From positions 1-64,000 of the forward strand of contig JAQXJZ010000112.1 in the NCBI GenBank assembly GCA_029009515.1: a stretch of DNA of 64,000 nucleotides, read 5' to 3'. The notes beneath the pieces are model-generated. The model made no database searches and was not told the origin of the DNA. It was given only the letters and a program-made list of their open reading frames with translations. Origin of the DNA: a bacterium. Its GTDB lineage: Bacteria; Bacillota; Clostridia; Christensenellales; Aristaeellaceae. Of the stretch, positions 35,145 to 42,513 are shown one piece after another (the stretch's first letter is position 1; every line of letters begins with the position of its first letter). Position numbers and translations under genes: made by a program.

Positions 35145-35176
35145 TTGTGCGACAATGCATGCAAAGGAGCAGCACA

Positions 35177-36460
35177 ATGAACAACTTTCCCTATGACGCT
35201 GTGGTTTTTGATCTGGACGGCACGCTGTTTGACGCGGAGGAAGGCATTGTATCCTCGGTGATTGAATCGGTGCGGGGACTGGGGCTGGAGGTGCCGCAGA
35301 ATGCGGATCTGCGCGAGGTGGTGGGCCCGCCGCTGCGCGATTCCTACCGCAATCTGCTCAATGTGCCCGAAGAACTGGTGGAAAAAGCCATGGATCTTTA
35401 CCGCGTGGATTTTTCTGCGCGCGGCATGTATCTGTACAGCGTATATCCCCATATCCGCAGCATTCTGCAAATGCTGCGCAAGGGCGGCACACATGTGGCT
35501 GTGGCCACCTCCAAGCCGCTTTGGCTGGCGCTGGATATTCTGCGCCACTTTGGCATGGAGAAGCTGTTTGACCGCATTGTGGGCGAGGTGGACGGCGCGG
35601 CCAAGCTGGGCAAGCCCGAGCTCATCCGCAGCGCCCTGCCGGATAAATACAAAAGCGCCGCCATGGTGGGCGACCGCAAGTTTGACGTAGAGGGCGCTCT
35701 GGCCAACGGCATCGATGCGGTGGCGGTTTCCTACGGCTGCGGCAGCGAGGAAGAGCTGCAGGACGCCGGCGCGACGGTGATCATCCCGGATACGGAAAGC
35801 CTGCGCGCCTATCTGTGCCCCGGTGCGGAGATTCCGCGTGGCTTCTTCCTGAGCGTGGAAGGCCCGGACGGCAGCGGCAAGACCACGCAGGTGGACCTGC
35901 TGGAAAAGAGCCTGCGCCAGTACGGCTTCAGCGTGGTGCGCACCCGTGAGCCCGGCGGCTGCGAGATCAGCGAGGACATCCGCCGCATCATTCTGGACCC
36001 CGAAAACATGGAAATGTGCGACGAGTGCGAGGCACTGCTCTACGCCGCATCCCGCGCGCAGCATGTGCATCAGGTCATCCGCCCCGCGGTGGAGCGCGGC
36101 GAACTGGTGCTGTGCGACCGCTTTGTGGACAGCTCCGTCGCCTATCAGGGCGGCGGCCGCGAGCTGGGCGTGGACATGATTCAGCAGATCAACGCGCCTG
36201 CTGTGGGCGATATGCTGCCCGACGCCACGCTGTATCTGGCCATCGATCACAAGCTGGCGCTCATGCGCCGCCTGGCCGCTTCCGAGCCCGACAGGCTGGA
36301 GCTGGCGGCGGTGGAATTCCACGGCCGCGTACAGAAGGCCTACGAGAGGCTGATTAAGGAAAACAAGAAGCGCTTCCTGGTGGTGGACGCCTCGCGCGAT
36401 ATCGAAAGCATCGCGCAGGATGCGCTGAAGGCTGTGCTTTCCAAACTTCTGGAGGATTGA
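35177..36460 (+). CDS. tmk: HAD-superfamily phosphatase fused to thymidylate kinase
   Basis: A 427-residue bifunctional protein. Residues 1-215 are a HAD hydrolase of the phosphoglycolate-phosphatase type: FDLDGTLFD with Asp12/Asp14, TSKP with the motif II/III region, and GDRKFD. Residues ~221-427 are a full dTMP kinase: P-loop VEGPDGSGKTT (227-237), REPGG, and CDRFVDSSVAYQGGGR. The kinase makes dTDP for DNA synthesis. The HAD half may hydrolyse a nucleotide or sugar phosphate. The start at ATG 35177 has AAAGGAG upstream, and mnmA follows after 3 bp. No second tmk is seen in the window, so this may be the only copy. Confidence 0.92.
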   Translation: MNNFPYDAVVFDLDGTLFDAEEGIVSSVIESVRGLGLEVPQNADLREVVGPPLRDSYRNLLNVPEELVEKAMDLYRVDFSARGMYLYSVYPHIRSILQMLRKGGTHVAVATSKPLWLALDILRHFGMEKLFDRIVGEVDGAAKLGKPELIRSALPDKYKSAAMVGDRKFDVEGALANGIDAVAVSYGCGSEEELQDAGATVIIPDTESLRAYLCPGAEIPRGFFLSVEGPDGSGKTTQVDLLEKSLRQYGFSVVRTREPGGCEISEDIRRIILDPENMEMCDECEALLYAASRAQHVHQVIRPAVERGELVLCDRFVDSSVAYQGGGRELGVDMIQQINAPAVGDMLPDATLYLAIDHKLALMRRLAASEPDRLELAAVEFHGRVQKAYERLIKENKKRFLVVDASRDIESIAQDALKAVLSKLLED

Positions 36461-36463
36461 CGT

Positions 36464-37558
36464 ATGGAGAGAGTCGTCATCGGCATGTCCGGCGGCGTGG
36501 ACAGCTCCGTCGCGGCGCTCATGCTCAAGCAGCAGGGCTACGACGTGGTGGGCGTGTTCATGAAAAACTGGGATGAGAAGGACGAAAACGGCACCTGCAC
36601 CGCCGCCGACGACTGGCGCGATGTGCAGGACGTGTGCGACACCATCGGCATTCCCTGCTACGCCGTCAATTTTGAAAAAGAATACTACGACCGCGTGTTC
36701 AGCTACTTCCTGAGCGAATACCGCCTGGGCCGCACGCCCAACCCGGATGTGCTGTGCAACCGCGAGATCAAGTTCAAAGCGTTTTTGGAGTACGCCCTCA
36801 AGCTGGGCGCGGGCCACATGGCCACCGGCCACTTCGTGCAGAAGGATGTGCGGGATGGTCACACCGTGCTTCTGCGCGGCAGCAATCCGGCCAAGGATCA
36901 GAGCTATTTTCTCTACATGCTCAAGGAAAGGCAGATTGAGCGCGCGCTGTTCCCCGTGGGTCACCTGACCAAGGACGAGGTGCGCGAGATTGCCGAGAAA
37001 AACGGCCTGATCACCAGCAAGAAGAAGGATTCCACCGGCGTGTGCTTCATTGGCGAGCGCAACTTCCGCCAGTTCCTGCAGGGCTTTTTGCCCATGCAGC
37101 CGGGCGACATGCGCACCGAGGACGGCAAAAAGGTGGGCGAGCACATCGGCCTGGCCTACTACACACTGGGCCAGCGCCGCGGCCTTGGCATTGGCGGCAG
37201 CGGCGACGGACGCAGGTGGTTTGTGATCGACAAGGATCTCAAAAACAATGTGCTGGTCGTCTCCCAGGGCGAGGACAGCCCGCGCCTCTACAGCAAATTC
37301 ACCCGTGCCAGCCAGCTGACCTGGGTGGCGGATGAAGCGCCCGCGCCGGACGGTGTGCCCTTCCGCGCAACGGCCAAGTTCCGCTACCGCCAGCCGGATC
37401 AGGCGGTGACGATCACCATCCATGGCGATGAGATGTACATCGAAGCGGATGAGCTGCAGCGTGCGGTCACGCCGGGTCAGAGCGTGGTGCTCTATCAGGA
37501 CGATGTGTGCTTGGGCGGAGGCATTGCGGAAGAGACTTCCATGCAGCCTTATGCATAA
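36464..37558 (+). CDS. mnmA: tRNA-specific 2-thiouridylase
   Basis: A 364-residue enzyme that puts sulfur on U34 of tRNA-Lys, -Glu and -Gln. The N-terminal PP-loop is [12 protein letters not shown] (residues 7-18). The two catalytic cysteines are Cys98 in [12 protein letters not shown] and Cys194 in [21 protein letters not shown] marks the central region, and a beta-barrel domain ends the protein. Length fits MnmA (~360). It begins 3 bp after the HAD-tmk stop and probably shares its transcript. A sulfur donor cysteine desulfurase is not in the window. Confidence 0.97.
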
Positions 37559-37659: not shown

Positions 37660-37716
37660 ATTCAGCATCATTCGGATATCGTCTGAATGTTTATAGGAAC
37701 AAGGAGGAATTTGACC

Positions 37717-38841
37717 ATGAAGAAACTGGTTGCTATCGTTTTGACTCTGGCTCTCGCGATGAGCTTTGCCATCCCTGCCATGGCTGCCGACACCATCAAG
37801 ATCGGCGTTATCGGCCCCCTGACCGGCGGCGCTGCCATTTACGGCAATGCGGTTGCCAACGCTGCCAAGATTGCTGCTGATGAGATCAACGCTCTGGGCG
37901 GCATGCAGCTCGAGATCGATGCTCAGGACGACGAGCATGACCCCGAGAAGTCCATCAACGCTTACAACACCACCCTGGATAGCGGCTCCCTCGTCATCGT
38001 GGGCTGCGTTACCTCCGGCCCCTGCGCTGCTGTTGCCAGCCAGGCTTATGAAGATCGCATCTTCATGCTGACCCCCTCCGCTTCCTCTGTTGACGTCATC
38101 GCCGACAAGGACAACGTGTACCAGGTCTGCTTCACCGACCCCGCTCAGGGCGCTGCCTCCGCTGATTACATCGCCGGCAAGGGCCTGGCCAAGAAGGTTG
38201 CCGTGATCTACAACAACGGCGACGTGTACTCCACCGGCATCTACCAGACCTTCGAAGCCAAGGCTGCCGAGGTTGGTCTGGAGATCGTGGCTGTGTCCAC
38301 CTTCACCGATGACACCACTGACTTCTCCGTGCAGGTCACCGAGGCCAAGAACGCCGGCGCCGAGCTGGTCTTCCTGCCCATCTACTACACCCCCGCTTCC
38401 ATGATCCTCACCCAGGCTGCGGCCGTGGACTTCAAGCCCATCTTCTTCGGCGTGGACGGCTTGGACGGCATCCTGACCATGGAAGGCTTCGACGCTTCCC
38501 TGGCCGAGGGCGTGCTGCTGCTGACCCCCTTCTCTGCCGACGCCAAGGATGAGAAGACCCAGAACTTCGTCAAGAAGTACACCGAGCTGTACAACGACAT
38601 CCCCAACCAGTTTGCTGCTGACGCCTACGACGCTGTGTACGCTGTGTACGAGGCCATGATCGCTGGCGGCGTGACCGCTGACATGAGCCCCGAAGAAGTT
38701 TGCGAGATCATGATCGAGCAGATGCAGCAGCTGACCATCGACGGTCTGACCGGCACCATGACCTGGGCCGCCACCGGCGAAGTGAGCAAGACCCCCACTG
38801 CCGTCAAGATCGAAAACGGCGTCTACGTGGGCATGGAATAA
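37717..38841 (+). CDS. livJ: Branched-chain amino acid ABC transporter substrate-binding protein
   Basis: A 374-residue periplasmic-binding-fold protein that captures Leu/Ile/Val or related ligands. The mature domain starts IKIGVIGPLTGGAAIYG, the usual LivJ/LivK entry. The signal peptide MKKLVAIVLTLALAMSFA ends AMA-AD, a signal peptidase I type site; there is no cysteine for lipid attachment. Most Gram-positive binding proteins are lipoproteins, so this is odd. AAGGAGG precedes ATG 37717. Codon use is strongly biased toward a few codons, as in highly expressed genes. It is the first gene of livJHMGF. Confidence 0.92.
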   Translation: MKKLVAIVLTLALAMSFAIPAMAADTIKIGVIGPLTGGAAIYGNAVANAAKIAADEINALGGMQLEIDAQDDEHDPEKSINAYNTTLDSGSLVIVGCVTSGPCAAVASQAYEDRIFMLTPSASSVDVIADKDNVYQVCFTDPAQGAASADYIAGKGLAKKVAVIYNNGDVYSTGIYQTFEAKAAEVGLEIVAVSTFTDDTTDFSVQVTEAKNAGAELVFLPIYYTPASMILTQAAAVDFKPIFFGVDGLDGILTMEGFDASLAEGVLLLTPFSADAKDEKTQNFVKKYTELYNDIPNQFAADAYDAVYAVYEAMIAGGVTADMSPEEVCEIMIEQMQQLTIDGLTGTMTWAATGEVSKTPTAVKIENGVYVGME

Positions 38842-38860
38842 TCGCTGCAAAAGCGCTTCT

Positions 38861-38895
38861 TTCCGGCTCCGTCCCCAATGCGGGCGGAGCCGGAA
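38861..38895 (+). repeat. First intercistronic hairpin of liv operon
   Basis: TTCCGGCTCCG and CGGAGCCGGAA form an 11-bp perfect stem after livJ, without a U-tract, so it is more likely an mRNA-stabilising or attenuating structure than a full terminator. Confidence 0.7.
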
Positions 38896-38907
38896 AACCG
38901 TATAGCT

Positions 38908-38966
38908 TTAAGGTAACCAACGGTAGTTTAGTCGCGTGATCACCCGACTGCCGTTGATTACCTTAA
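38908..38966 (+). repeat. Long second intercistronic hairpin of liv operon
   Basis: TTAAGGTAACCAACGGTAGT pairs with ATTGCCGTTGATTACCTTAA-type sequence (CTGCCGTTGATTACCTTAA) in a stem of about 20 bp with one mismatch and a G-U pair. It lies between livJ and livH. Such structures often let the binding protein be made in excess of the permeases. Confidence 0.7.
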
Positions 38967-38994
38967 CGCATTTTCAAGAAAGGATGTGGGGAAC

Positions 38995-39879
38995 ATGATG
39001 CAATTCCTGTCCTACCTGTGCAACGGCATCAGCCTGGGCAGCGTTTACGCCATCATTGCCCTTGGATACACCATGGTTTACGGCATCGCCAAGATGCTCA
39101 ACTTCGCTCATGGCGACGTCATTATGATTGGCGCCTACATTGCCTTCTGCGCCATGCAGTACTGGGGCCTGCCGCCCATCATCTCCGTGATTGCGGCCAT
39201 GGCGGTGTGCACCGCGCTGGGCGTGACCATCGAACGCCTGGCCTACAAGCCCCTGCGCAAGGCGACCTCTCTGGCTGTGCTCATCACCGCCATCGGCATG
39301 AGCTACCTGCTGCAGAACATCGCCCTGCTGGTCTGGGGCGCCAACCCCAAGAGCTTCCCCTCTGTGGTCAAGCTGGGTTCCGTTTCCCTCGCGGGCGGCC
39401 AGCTGATCATCTCCGGCGCTGCCATCGTGACCATCGTGGCTTGCATCGTGATCATGGTGGCGCTCACCCTGTTCACCAGCAAGACCAAGATGGGCAAGGC
39501 CATGCGCGTTGTCAGCGAGGACAAGGGCGCGGCTGAACTGATGGGCATCAACGTGAACTTCACCATTTCCATCACCTTCGCCATCGGCTCCGCGCTGGCG
39601 GCCATCGCCGGCGTGCTGCTGTGCTCCGCCTATCCCACCCTGCAGCCCACCACCGGCTCCATGCCTGGCATCAAGGCATTTACCGCCGCTGTGTTCGGCG
39701 GCATCGGCTCCATCCCGGGCGCCATGGTTGGCGGCATCCTGCTGGGCGTGATTGAAATTCTGGGCAAGGCCTATGTATCCACCGAGCTGGGCGATGCGTT
39801 CGTCTTCGCCGTGCTCATCGTGGTGCTGCTGGTGAAGCCCGCCGGTCTGCTTGGCAAGACCGTGCACGAGAAAGTGTGA
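38995..39879 (+). CDS. livH: Branched-chain amino acid ABC transporter permease LivH
   Basis: A 294-residue permease with about eight hydrophobic segments. ALGYTMVYGIAKMLNFAHGDVI (split here as YGIAKMLNFAHGD) near residues 23-40 is the LivH signature. The GTG at 38986 in the ORF track is less likely than ATG 38995 or 38998. It pairs with LivM in the membrane. It follows livJ after two hairpins and precedes livM by 10 bp. Confidence 0.94.
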   Translation: MMQFLSYLCNGISLGSVYAIIALGYTMVYGIAKMLNFAHGDVIMIGAYIAFCAMQYWGLPPIISVIAAMAVCTALGVTIERLAYKPLRKATSLAVLITAIGMSYLLQNIALLVWGANPKSFPSVVKLGSVSLAGGQLIISGAAIVTIVACIVIMVALTLFTSKTKMGKAMRVVSEDKGAAELMGINVNFTISITFAIGSALAAIAGVLLCSAYPTLQPTTGSMPGIKAFTAAVFGGIGSIPGAMVGGILLGVIEILGKAYVSTELGDAFVFAVLIVVLLVKPAGLLGKTVHEKV

Positions 39880-39889
39880 GGTGAGCGGT

Positions 39890-40947
39890 ATGAAGATCAA
39901 CAAAAAACTTCTCAACAACCTCATCACCTATGGCATTGTCATCATCGCTTTCATCATCTGCCAGTCCATGGTATCCACCGGCACCATGAGCCGTTCGCTC
40001 AAGGGCCAGCTGGTGCCCATCTGCGTGTGGATTGTGATGGCCGTGAGCCTCAACCTGGTGGTTGGCGTATCCGGCGAGCTGAGCCTTGGCCACGCCGGTT
40101 TCATGAGTGTTGGCGCGTTCAGCGGCATTGTGGTTTCCACCTGGCTGCTCACCCGCTTCCAGATGGACAATGAGCCCCTGCGCCTGGTGCTGGCCATGAT
40201 CGGCGGCGGCGTGTGCGCCGGTATCGCCGGCGTGCTGATCGGCATTCCCGTTCTGCGCCTGCGCGGCGACTACCTGGCCATTGTAACCCTGGCGTTTGGC
40301 GAAATCATCCGCAACGTCATCAACTGCCTGTACATTTCCTTCGACAACGGCAAGATGCACATGGCCTTCAACAACTCCGACATCCCCGGCAAGCTGATCA
40401 TCTCCGGCCCCAAGGGCGCTGTGGGCGTGGACAAGATTGCCACCTTCGTGATGGGCTTCATCCTCATCATGTTCACGCTGTTCGTGGTTCTCAACCTCAT
40501 CAACTCCCGCTCCGGCCGCGCCATCATGGCCACCCGCGACGCGCGCATTGCCGCTGAGAGCGTGGGCATCAACGTGACCAAGTACAAGATGATGGCCTTC
40601 GTCACCAGCGCTGTGCTGGCCGGCATGGCCGGTACGCTCTACGGCCTCAACTTCTCCACCGTGGCTGCCAGCAAGTTCAAGTTTGATACTTCCATCCTTG
40701 TGCTGGTGTTCGTGGTGCTGGGCGGCATCGGCTCCATCCGCGGCTCCATCATCGCGGCTGCGCTGCTGACGGTTCTGCCCGAACTTCTGCGCGCCTTCTC
40801 CGATTACCGCATGCTGGTGTACGCCATTGTGCTCATCCTGGTCATGCTGGTCACCAACAACCCGATGCTGAAGACCCGCATGGTTTCCATCACCACGACG
40901 ATCAAACAGAAAATTGGCAGGAAAGGCGGAAAGGAGGCTGAGCAGGA

Positions 40948-40951
<4 letters not shown>
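39890..40951 (+). CDS. livM: Branched-chain amino acid ABC transporter permease LivM
   Basis: A 353-residue permease with about nine hydrophobic segments. SLNLVVGVSGELSLGHAGFM and LRLRGDYLAIVTLAFGEIIR are LivM signatures. I begin at ATG 39890, preceded by GAGGTGAGCGGT, rather than at the ORF-track start inside livH. Its stop overlaps the livG start (ATGA), indicating coupled translation. Confidence 0.94.
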
Positions 40952-41799
<848 letters not shown>

Positions 41800-41802
41800 C
41801 GA

Positions 41803-42513
41803 ATGAGCACGCTTCTGAAAGTTGACAACATTCACGTGTACTACGGCGCCATCCACGCCATCAAGGGCATTTCCTTTGAGGTGAACGAAGGCGAGATCGT
41901 CACCCTCATCGGCGCCAACGGCGCTGGCAAGTCCACCACGCTCAACACCGTGGCTGGCCTGCTCAAGCCCCGCGAAGGCTCCATCACCCTCGAAGGCAAG
42001 AGCCTGCTGGGCATTCCGGTGCACAAGCTGGTGTCCCGCGGCATGGCGCTCTGCCCCGAAGGCCGCCGCATCTTCCAGCAGATGACCGTGCGTGAGAACC
42101 TTGAAATGGGCGGATATAGCCGTCCTGCCGAGGAAATCGACGCTTCGATGGCGGACGTGTTCAGCCGCTTCCCGCGCCTCAAGGAGCGCGAAAAGCAGAT
42201 CGCCGGCACGCTGTCCGGCGGCGAGCAGCAGATGCTGGCCATGGGTCGCGCGCTCATGTCCAAGCCCAAGCTCCTCATGCTGGACGAGCCTTCCATGGGT
42301 CTGGCGCCCATTCTGGTGGAGCAGATCTTTGACATCATCAAGGAGCTGCACGAGGCTGGCACCACCATTCTTCTCGTTGAGCAGAACGCGCAGATGGCTC
42401 TGTCCATCGCCGACCGCGCTTACGTGCTCGGCACCGGTTCGATCACCATGTCCGGCAACGCTGCCGACGTGCTGGCGGACGACCGCGTGCGTGCAGCTTA
42501 TCTCGGTGGATAA
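41803..42513 (+). CDS. livF: Branched-chain amino acid ABC transporter ATP-binding protein LivF
   Basis: A 236-residue ATPase. Walker A GANGAGKST near residues 38-46, signature LSGGEQQMLAMGRAL near 135-149, and Walker B LLMLDEPSMGL follow the LivF pattern. It starts 3 bp after livG. The last codons and stop are part of a perfect 12-bp palindrome (42491-42520), and a repeat element follows at once. It closes the operon. Confidence 0.95.
   Translation: MSTLLKVDNIHVYYGAIHAIKGISFEVNEGEIVTLIGANGAGKSTTLNTVAGLLKPREGSITLEGKSLLGIPVHKLVSRGMALCPEGRRIFQQMTVRENLEMGGYSRPAEEIDASMADVFSRFPRLKEREKQIAGTLSGGEQQMLAMGRALMSKPKLLMLDEPSMGLAPILVEQIFDIIKELHEAGTTILLVEQNAQMALSIADRAYVLGTGSITMSGNAADVLADDRVRAAYLGG

Follow-up and report, generated by a model that had tools for sequence, protein, structure and literature searches.

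The gene at positions 35,177 to 36,460 of the window (the whole stretch of 64,000 nucleotides analysed here, from a bacterium of the family Aristaeellaceae) raises the question of whether a HAD phosphatase and a thymidylate kinase (Tmk) are really encoded as one chain, and if so, what their union does. Both component enzymes are already well known, and dTMP is a DNA precursor. For the joined chain we have found no published description in the open-access library that our search covered. A preliminary description of the locus, made from the letters alone, had proposed an in-frame fusion of two intact enzymes, either coupling dTMP phosphorylation to a phosphatase step or simply tethering the two. 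The features are as follows.

35164..35169, + strand: Shine-Dalgarno-like AAGGAG, 7 nt before the ATG (sequence)
35177..36460, + strand: HAD-Tmk fusion gene, 427 aa, with its stop TGA at 36458-36460
35177..35815, + strand: HAD_2 domain with helical cap, residues 1-213 (Pfam, conservation, structure model)
35816..35839, + strand: linker CPGAEIPR, residues 214-221
35840..36457, + strand: dTMP kinase domain, residues 222-427 (Pfam, TIGR00041, structures)
35858..35884, + strand: Tmk P-loop EGPDGSGKT, residues 228-236 (sequence, conservation)
36116..36160, + strand: Tmk DRFVDSSVAYQGGGR motif, residues 314-328 (sequence, conservation)
36464..37558, + strand: mnmA-type tRNA 2-thiouridylase gene, named from its own sequence alone

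A single open frame of 427 aa, preceded by a good ribosome-binding site, runs on the + strand from the ATG at 35177 to the TGA at 36460, and both Pfam domains lie on it without a stop between them, as had been proposed. HAD_2 (PF13419) covers residues 9-184 (E 1e-24, 88.1 against a cut-off of 23.8 bits), and Thymidylate_kin (PF02223) covers residues 227-415 (E 1.3e-48), taking up profile positions 1-184 of 185; its score of 165.6 against a cut-off of 27 bits makes the kinase half a member of this family. The fusion also passes the TIGR00041 cut-off for dTMP kinase (186.9 vs 83.25 bits). With bacterial Tmk of the TIGR00041 type (S. aureus 2ccj, P. aeruginosa 4edh) it has in common the full domain, the P-loop, the DRF and the remaining active site, and many bacterial Tmk structures are closest to this half, with a TM-score of about 0.9 by target length; the difference is the added N-terminal HAD, while the matched solved structures are single-domain. 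Over the HAD half the same fold is found in the HAD_2 phosphatases 3mc1 (C. acetobutylicum) and 3sd7 (C. difficile) and in PtkA (6f2x), the closest being 3mc1 (sequence E 1e-42, 41% identity). These three are stand-alone proteins, whereas the HAD here is joined to Tmk, and the titles of 3mc1 and 3sd7 name no substrate.

The window's genome is a draft in 175 contigs, in which an assembly or sequencing artefact could have joined two genes. The preliminary description had asked that an assembly error be ruled out, and had called for a look at related genomes. The fusion is present at full length in 16/16 congeners searched (63-76% identity), and most other family members carry it at 41-64% identity. 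A Tmk match was obtained in 136 of the 150 family genomes, 129 being canonical by table count, and 126 of these 129 belong to open frames of 422 aa or more. The three exceptions lie at a contig edge (G1052) or in runs of N (G018, G033), so that these apparent splits were not counted as fissions. In addition, the fusion occurs in genomes of one or two contigs (G448, G356, G258), and an independent human-faecal assembly, MT839376.1, has it between yaaO and mnmA. Because the fusion recurs family-wide, in such compact assemblies and in MT839376.1, an assembly error is excluded, and we leave virtually no probability to an artefact of any kind. Within this bacterial family the fused gene is the norm. 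MT839376.1 (L221) is filed as bacteriophage, and it resembles bacterial DNA, as it carries yaaO, HAD-tmk and mnmA.

The motifs of both active sites are intact in the window, again as proposed. The HAD half has D12xD14, T111, K146 and D166xxxD170, and belongs to HAD_2 both by score cut-off and by these four HAD motifs. Degraded motifs in relatives, which would have spoken against a working phosphatase, were not seen: across 85 distinct fusions D12, D14, K146, D166 and D170 are invariant, and position 111 is T or S. By these motifs Asp12 would be the nucleophile and Asp14 the acid/base, with Asp166 and Asp170 as likely Mg-binding residues. The kinase half keeps its P-loop from E228 and its second motif from D314, and in the fusion alignment E228, G229, D231, G234, K235, R257, E258, D314, R315, D372, R373 and E375 are invariant columns; the P-loop, the DR(F/Y/H) motif and the Arg/Glu/Asp set identify it as a dTMP kinase. 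For 16 close relatives, from the genus and those nearest to it, the median pairwise dN/dS (NG86) is 0.28 for HAD and 0.18 for Tmk, values that are rough as dS is near 1.2. This result shows that both halves are under purifying selection, and both are predicted to be catalytically active.

As to the geometry of the chain, the AlphaFold model of the whole protein (mean pLDDT 94.5, pTM 0.91) suggests a fixed packing of the two halves. The stretch from L213 to G222 is 10 residues long in 66/79 fusions of the family, and such a near-constant linker length, together with the confident model of one chain, could mean that the relative orientation of the halves matters, which would speak against mere tethering.

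The preliminary description had also asked for a separate tmk elsewhere. The window's genome is 86% complete, and no Tmk other than the fused kinase was recognised in it; the C-terminal half would be the cell's ordinary dTMP kinase. We have considered a separate internal start for the kinase half and rejected it, since in the window gene none of the start codons in frame ahead of this half has a ribosome-binding site, and a Shine-Dalgarno-like candidate exists in just 2/94 fusions. The mnmA-type gene starts 3 nt past the fusion stop and is probably co-transcribed with the fusion; an mnmA homologue comes after the fusion in many relatives as well.

How the two genes came together can be read from other families of the order. 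In f2, f17, f21, f33 and part of f23, HAD and tmk are two genes, the HAD lying immediately upstream; they overlap by 4 bp (ATGA) in L084, L086 and L096, and at other loci a short gap separates them. The cluster order in these unfused relatives is yaaO-HAD-tmk-darA-holB-yaaT; at L074, for instance, a YaaO-type Orn/Lys/Arg decarboxylase lies upstream, while a c-di-AMP receptor, DNA polymerase III delta' and PSP1/YaaT lie downstream. It has been reported that yaaO is directly upstream of tmk in Bacillota (PMC8503589). The unfused relatives share the yaaO-tmk-darA-holB-yaaT order of the B. subtilis-type cluster and differ from it by the extra HAD gene between yaaO and tmk. In the window's family the HAD is joined to tmk, and at the window locus mnmA takes the place of darA as the following gene.

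In the Tmk tree, a branch with support 95 separates the halves that belong to the family from 40 others. For the HAD halves, a tree that keeps those of the family in one clade is not rejected (p-AU 0.62), and its likelihood is slightly above that of the free tree. We therefore picture one fusion event, which probably happened at the base of the family when the stop and start between the tightly packed HAD and tmk of a yaaO-HAD-tmk operon were lost, giving one chain. A second, stand-alone HAD of the window's genome (L070:2656-3324; G000:C39:6688-7296), 40% identical to the fused one, falls outside the family's fused clade. Fusions also exist in f33 (G143) and f23 (G218, G157, G175, G192, G241). 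As they group with the unfused relatives of their own families and have linkers of 5, 8 and 11 residues against 10 in the window's family, the HAD-tmk fusion probably arose separately in f23 and f33.

Such HAD-tmk adjacency across several families, together with repeated fusion, could mean a functional link. One form of it is metabolic coupling, in which the HAD would be a nucleotidase that, close to the active site of Tmk, clears away dUMP, or dNMPs that are damaged or in excess, and so filters the dTTP pool. HAD enzymes such as YjjG are pyrimidine 5'-monophosphate phosphatases, and the YjjG and PynA models give weak matches, far below cut-off, to some relatives of the fused HAD. The window HAD itself has no match to YjjG (TIGR02254) or PynA at E 0.001; it scores better to the phosphoglycolate phosphatase and PpaX models, yet it stays far below every curated cut-off of the substrate-specific HAD families in NCBIfam, the best equivalog scores being 78.2 vs 225, 73.8 vs 218 and 71.2 vs 180 bits. 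By its sequence, the HAD half looks like an active Gph/PpaX-like phosphatase that lies below every substrate-specific cut-off.

The HAD can also be joined to another partner. In the genus g72 (family f23), it is fused to the C-terminus of a YaaO-type decarboxylase in G111, G136 and G252, with tmk as a separate gene, while G241 of the same genus carries HAD-Tmk instead. The YaaO fusions are found at the following loci.

L071:725-2716: YaaO-HAD fusion, upstream of separate tmk, genus g72
L072:3655-5718: YaaO-HAD fusion, upstream of separate tmk, genus g72
L083:640-2736: YaaO-HAD fusion, upstream of separate tmk, genus g72

This leads to another explanation, that the HAD serves YaaO or EF-P-related metabolism and, lying between yaaO and tmk, was captured by its nearer neighbour. 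Apart from the g72 fusions, it agrees with the gene order of MT839376.1 and of the clusters in other families, where yaaO comes immediately before the HAD, and with the finding that yaaO of B. subtilis influences the 5-aminopentanol modification of EF-P (PMC5885033). Against it, the window's genome (86% complete) has no YaaO-type gene above the family cut-off and keeps the HAD nonetheless, so the HAD seems not to depend on YaaO. We regard this explanation as very unlikely.

Moreover, the HAD persists where the attached kinase is missing. In four genomes of three genera, namely G074 and G1087 (genus g16), G026 and G051, the HAD motifs are intact and the Tmk half is absent from the locus (L068, L231 in G1087, L062 and L064), and a divergent Tmk is present elsewhere in G074 (L069), G1087 and G026. 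In the tree, the lone HADs from G074, G026 and G051 fall among the fused HADs; the one from G1087 shares 69% identity with the HAD half in its congener G031. In the congeners G031 and G424 the fusion is complete, and the gene after it is the one that also comes after the lone HAD of G074. Actually, in G1087 the 200 bases past the HAD stop still hold collinear, frameshifted Tmk remnants scoring 27.7 bits, a score reached by 0/200 codon shuffles (best shuffle 20.4). This indicates that the HAD was kept once the kinase half had decayed.

Since the HAD is fused to YaaO in one genus, is kept without the Tmk half in three genera and scores below the specific cut-offs, the house-cleaning half of the earlier interpretation is unsupported, and we consider metabolic coupling unlikely in spite of the conserved adjacency and the recurrent fusion to Tmk. 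Its more specific version, a rigid bifunctional nucleotide-quality enzyme whose HAD hydrolyses non-canonical dNMPs beside Tmk and which was selected through repeated independent fusion, appears a little more doubtful still. The better half of that interpretation was the other one: the chain most likely consists of two enzymes that work autonomously and became tethered when neighbouring operon genes were read through. Each half would retain an active site of its own and, most likely, a separate task, and the gain from fusion may be shared expression and a fixed 1:1 stoichiometry, with presumably no metabolite passed between the halves.

The case is that of a phosphatase and an essential kinase fused across a family, and nature has supplied the controls, i.e., the unfused operon, the YaaO fusion and the loss of the kinase half, by which one can test whether gene fusion means functional coupling. 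Here these controls argue against coupling, which calls for caution in fusion-based function prediction.

The distribution of the fusion appears to be restricted. Searches of 291 genomes from the class at E <= 1e-50, a few of them belonging to the order, and of 300 genomes from the phylum at E <= 1e-60 gave no fusion elsewhere, and one scan of the contigs of named relatives gave none. The 80 best viral-contig loci have no HAD-Tmk fusion, and neither have the plasmid matches listed; one plasmid record that is not seen among these is counted as covering at least 80% of the query. At the thresholds used, the fusion was thus not found outside the order in the genomes sampled.

The surroundings of the locus vary among relatives. 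In several genera, mnmA after the HAD-Tmk locus is replaced by a gene with a zinc-ribbon-like N-terminus (L068:1-3339, L045:2792-4246), the one at L068:1-3339 also having peptidoglycan-binding repeats. In the window, mnmA is followed at 37687-42513 by genes that read like a putative ABC transporter of the branched-chain amino acid type, with a binding protein, two permease-like proteins and two ATPases, of which the profile scan covered the binding protein only.
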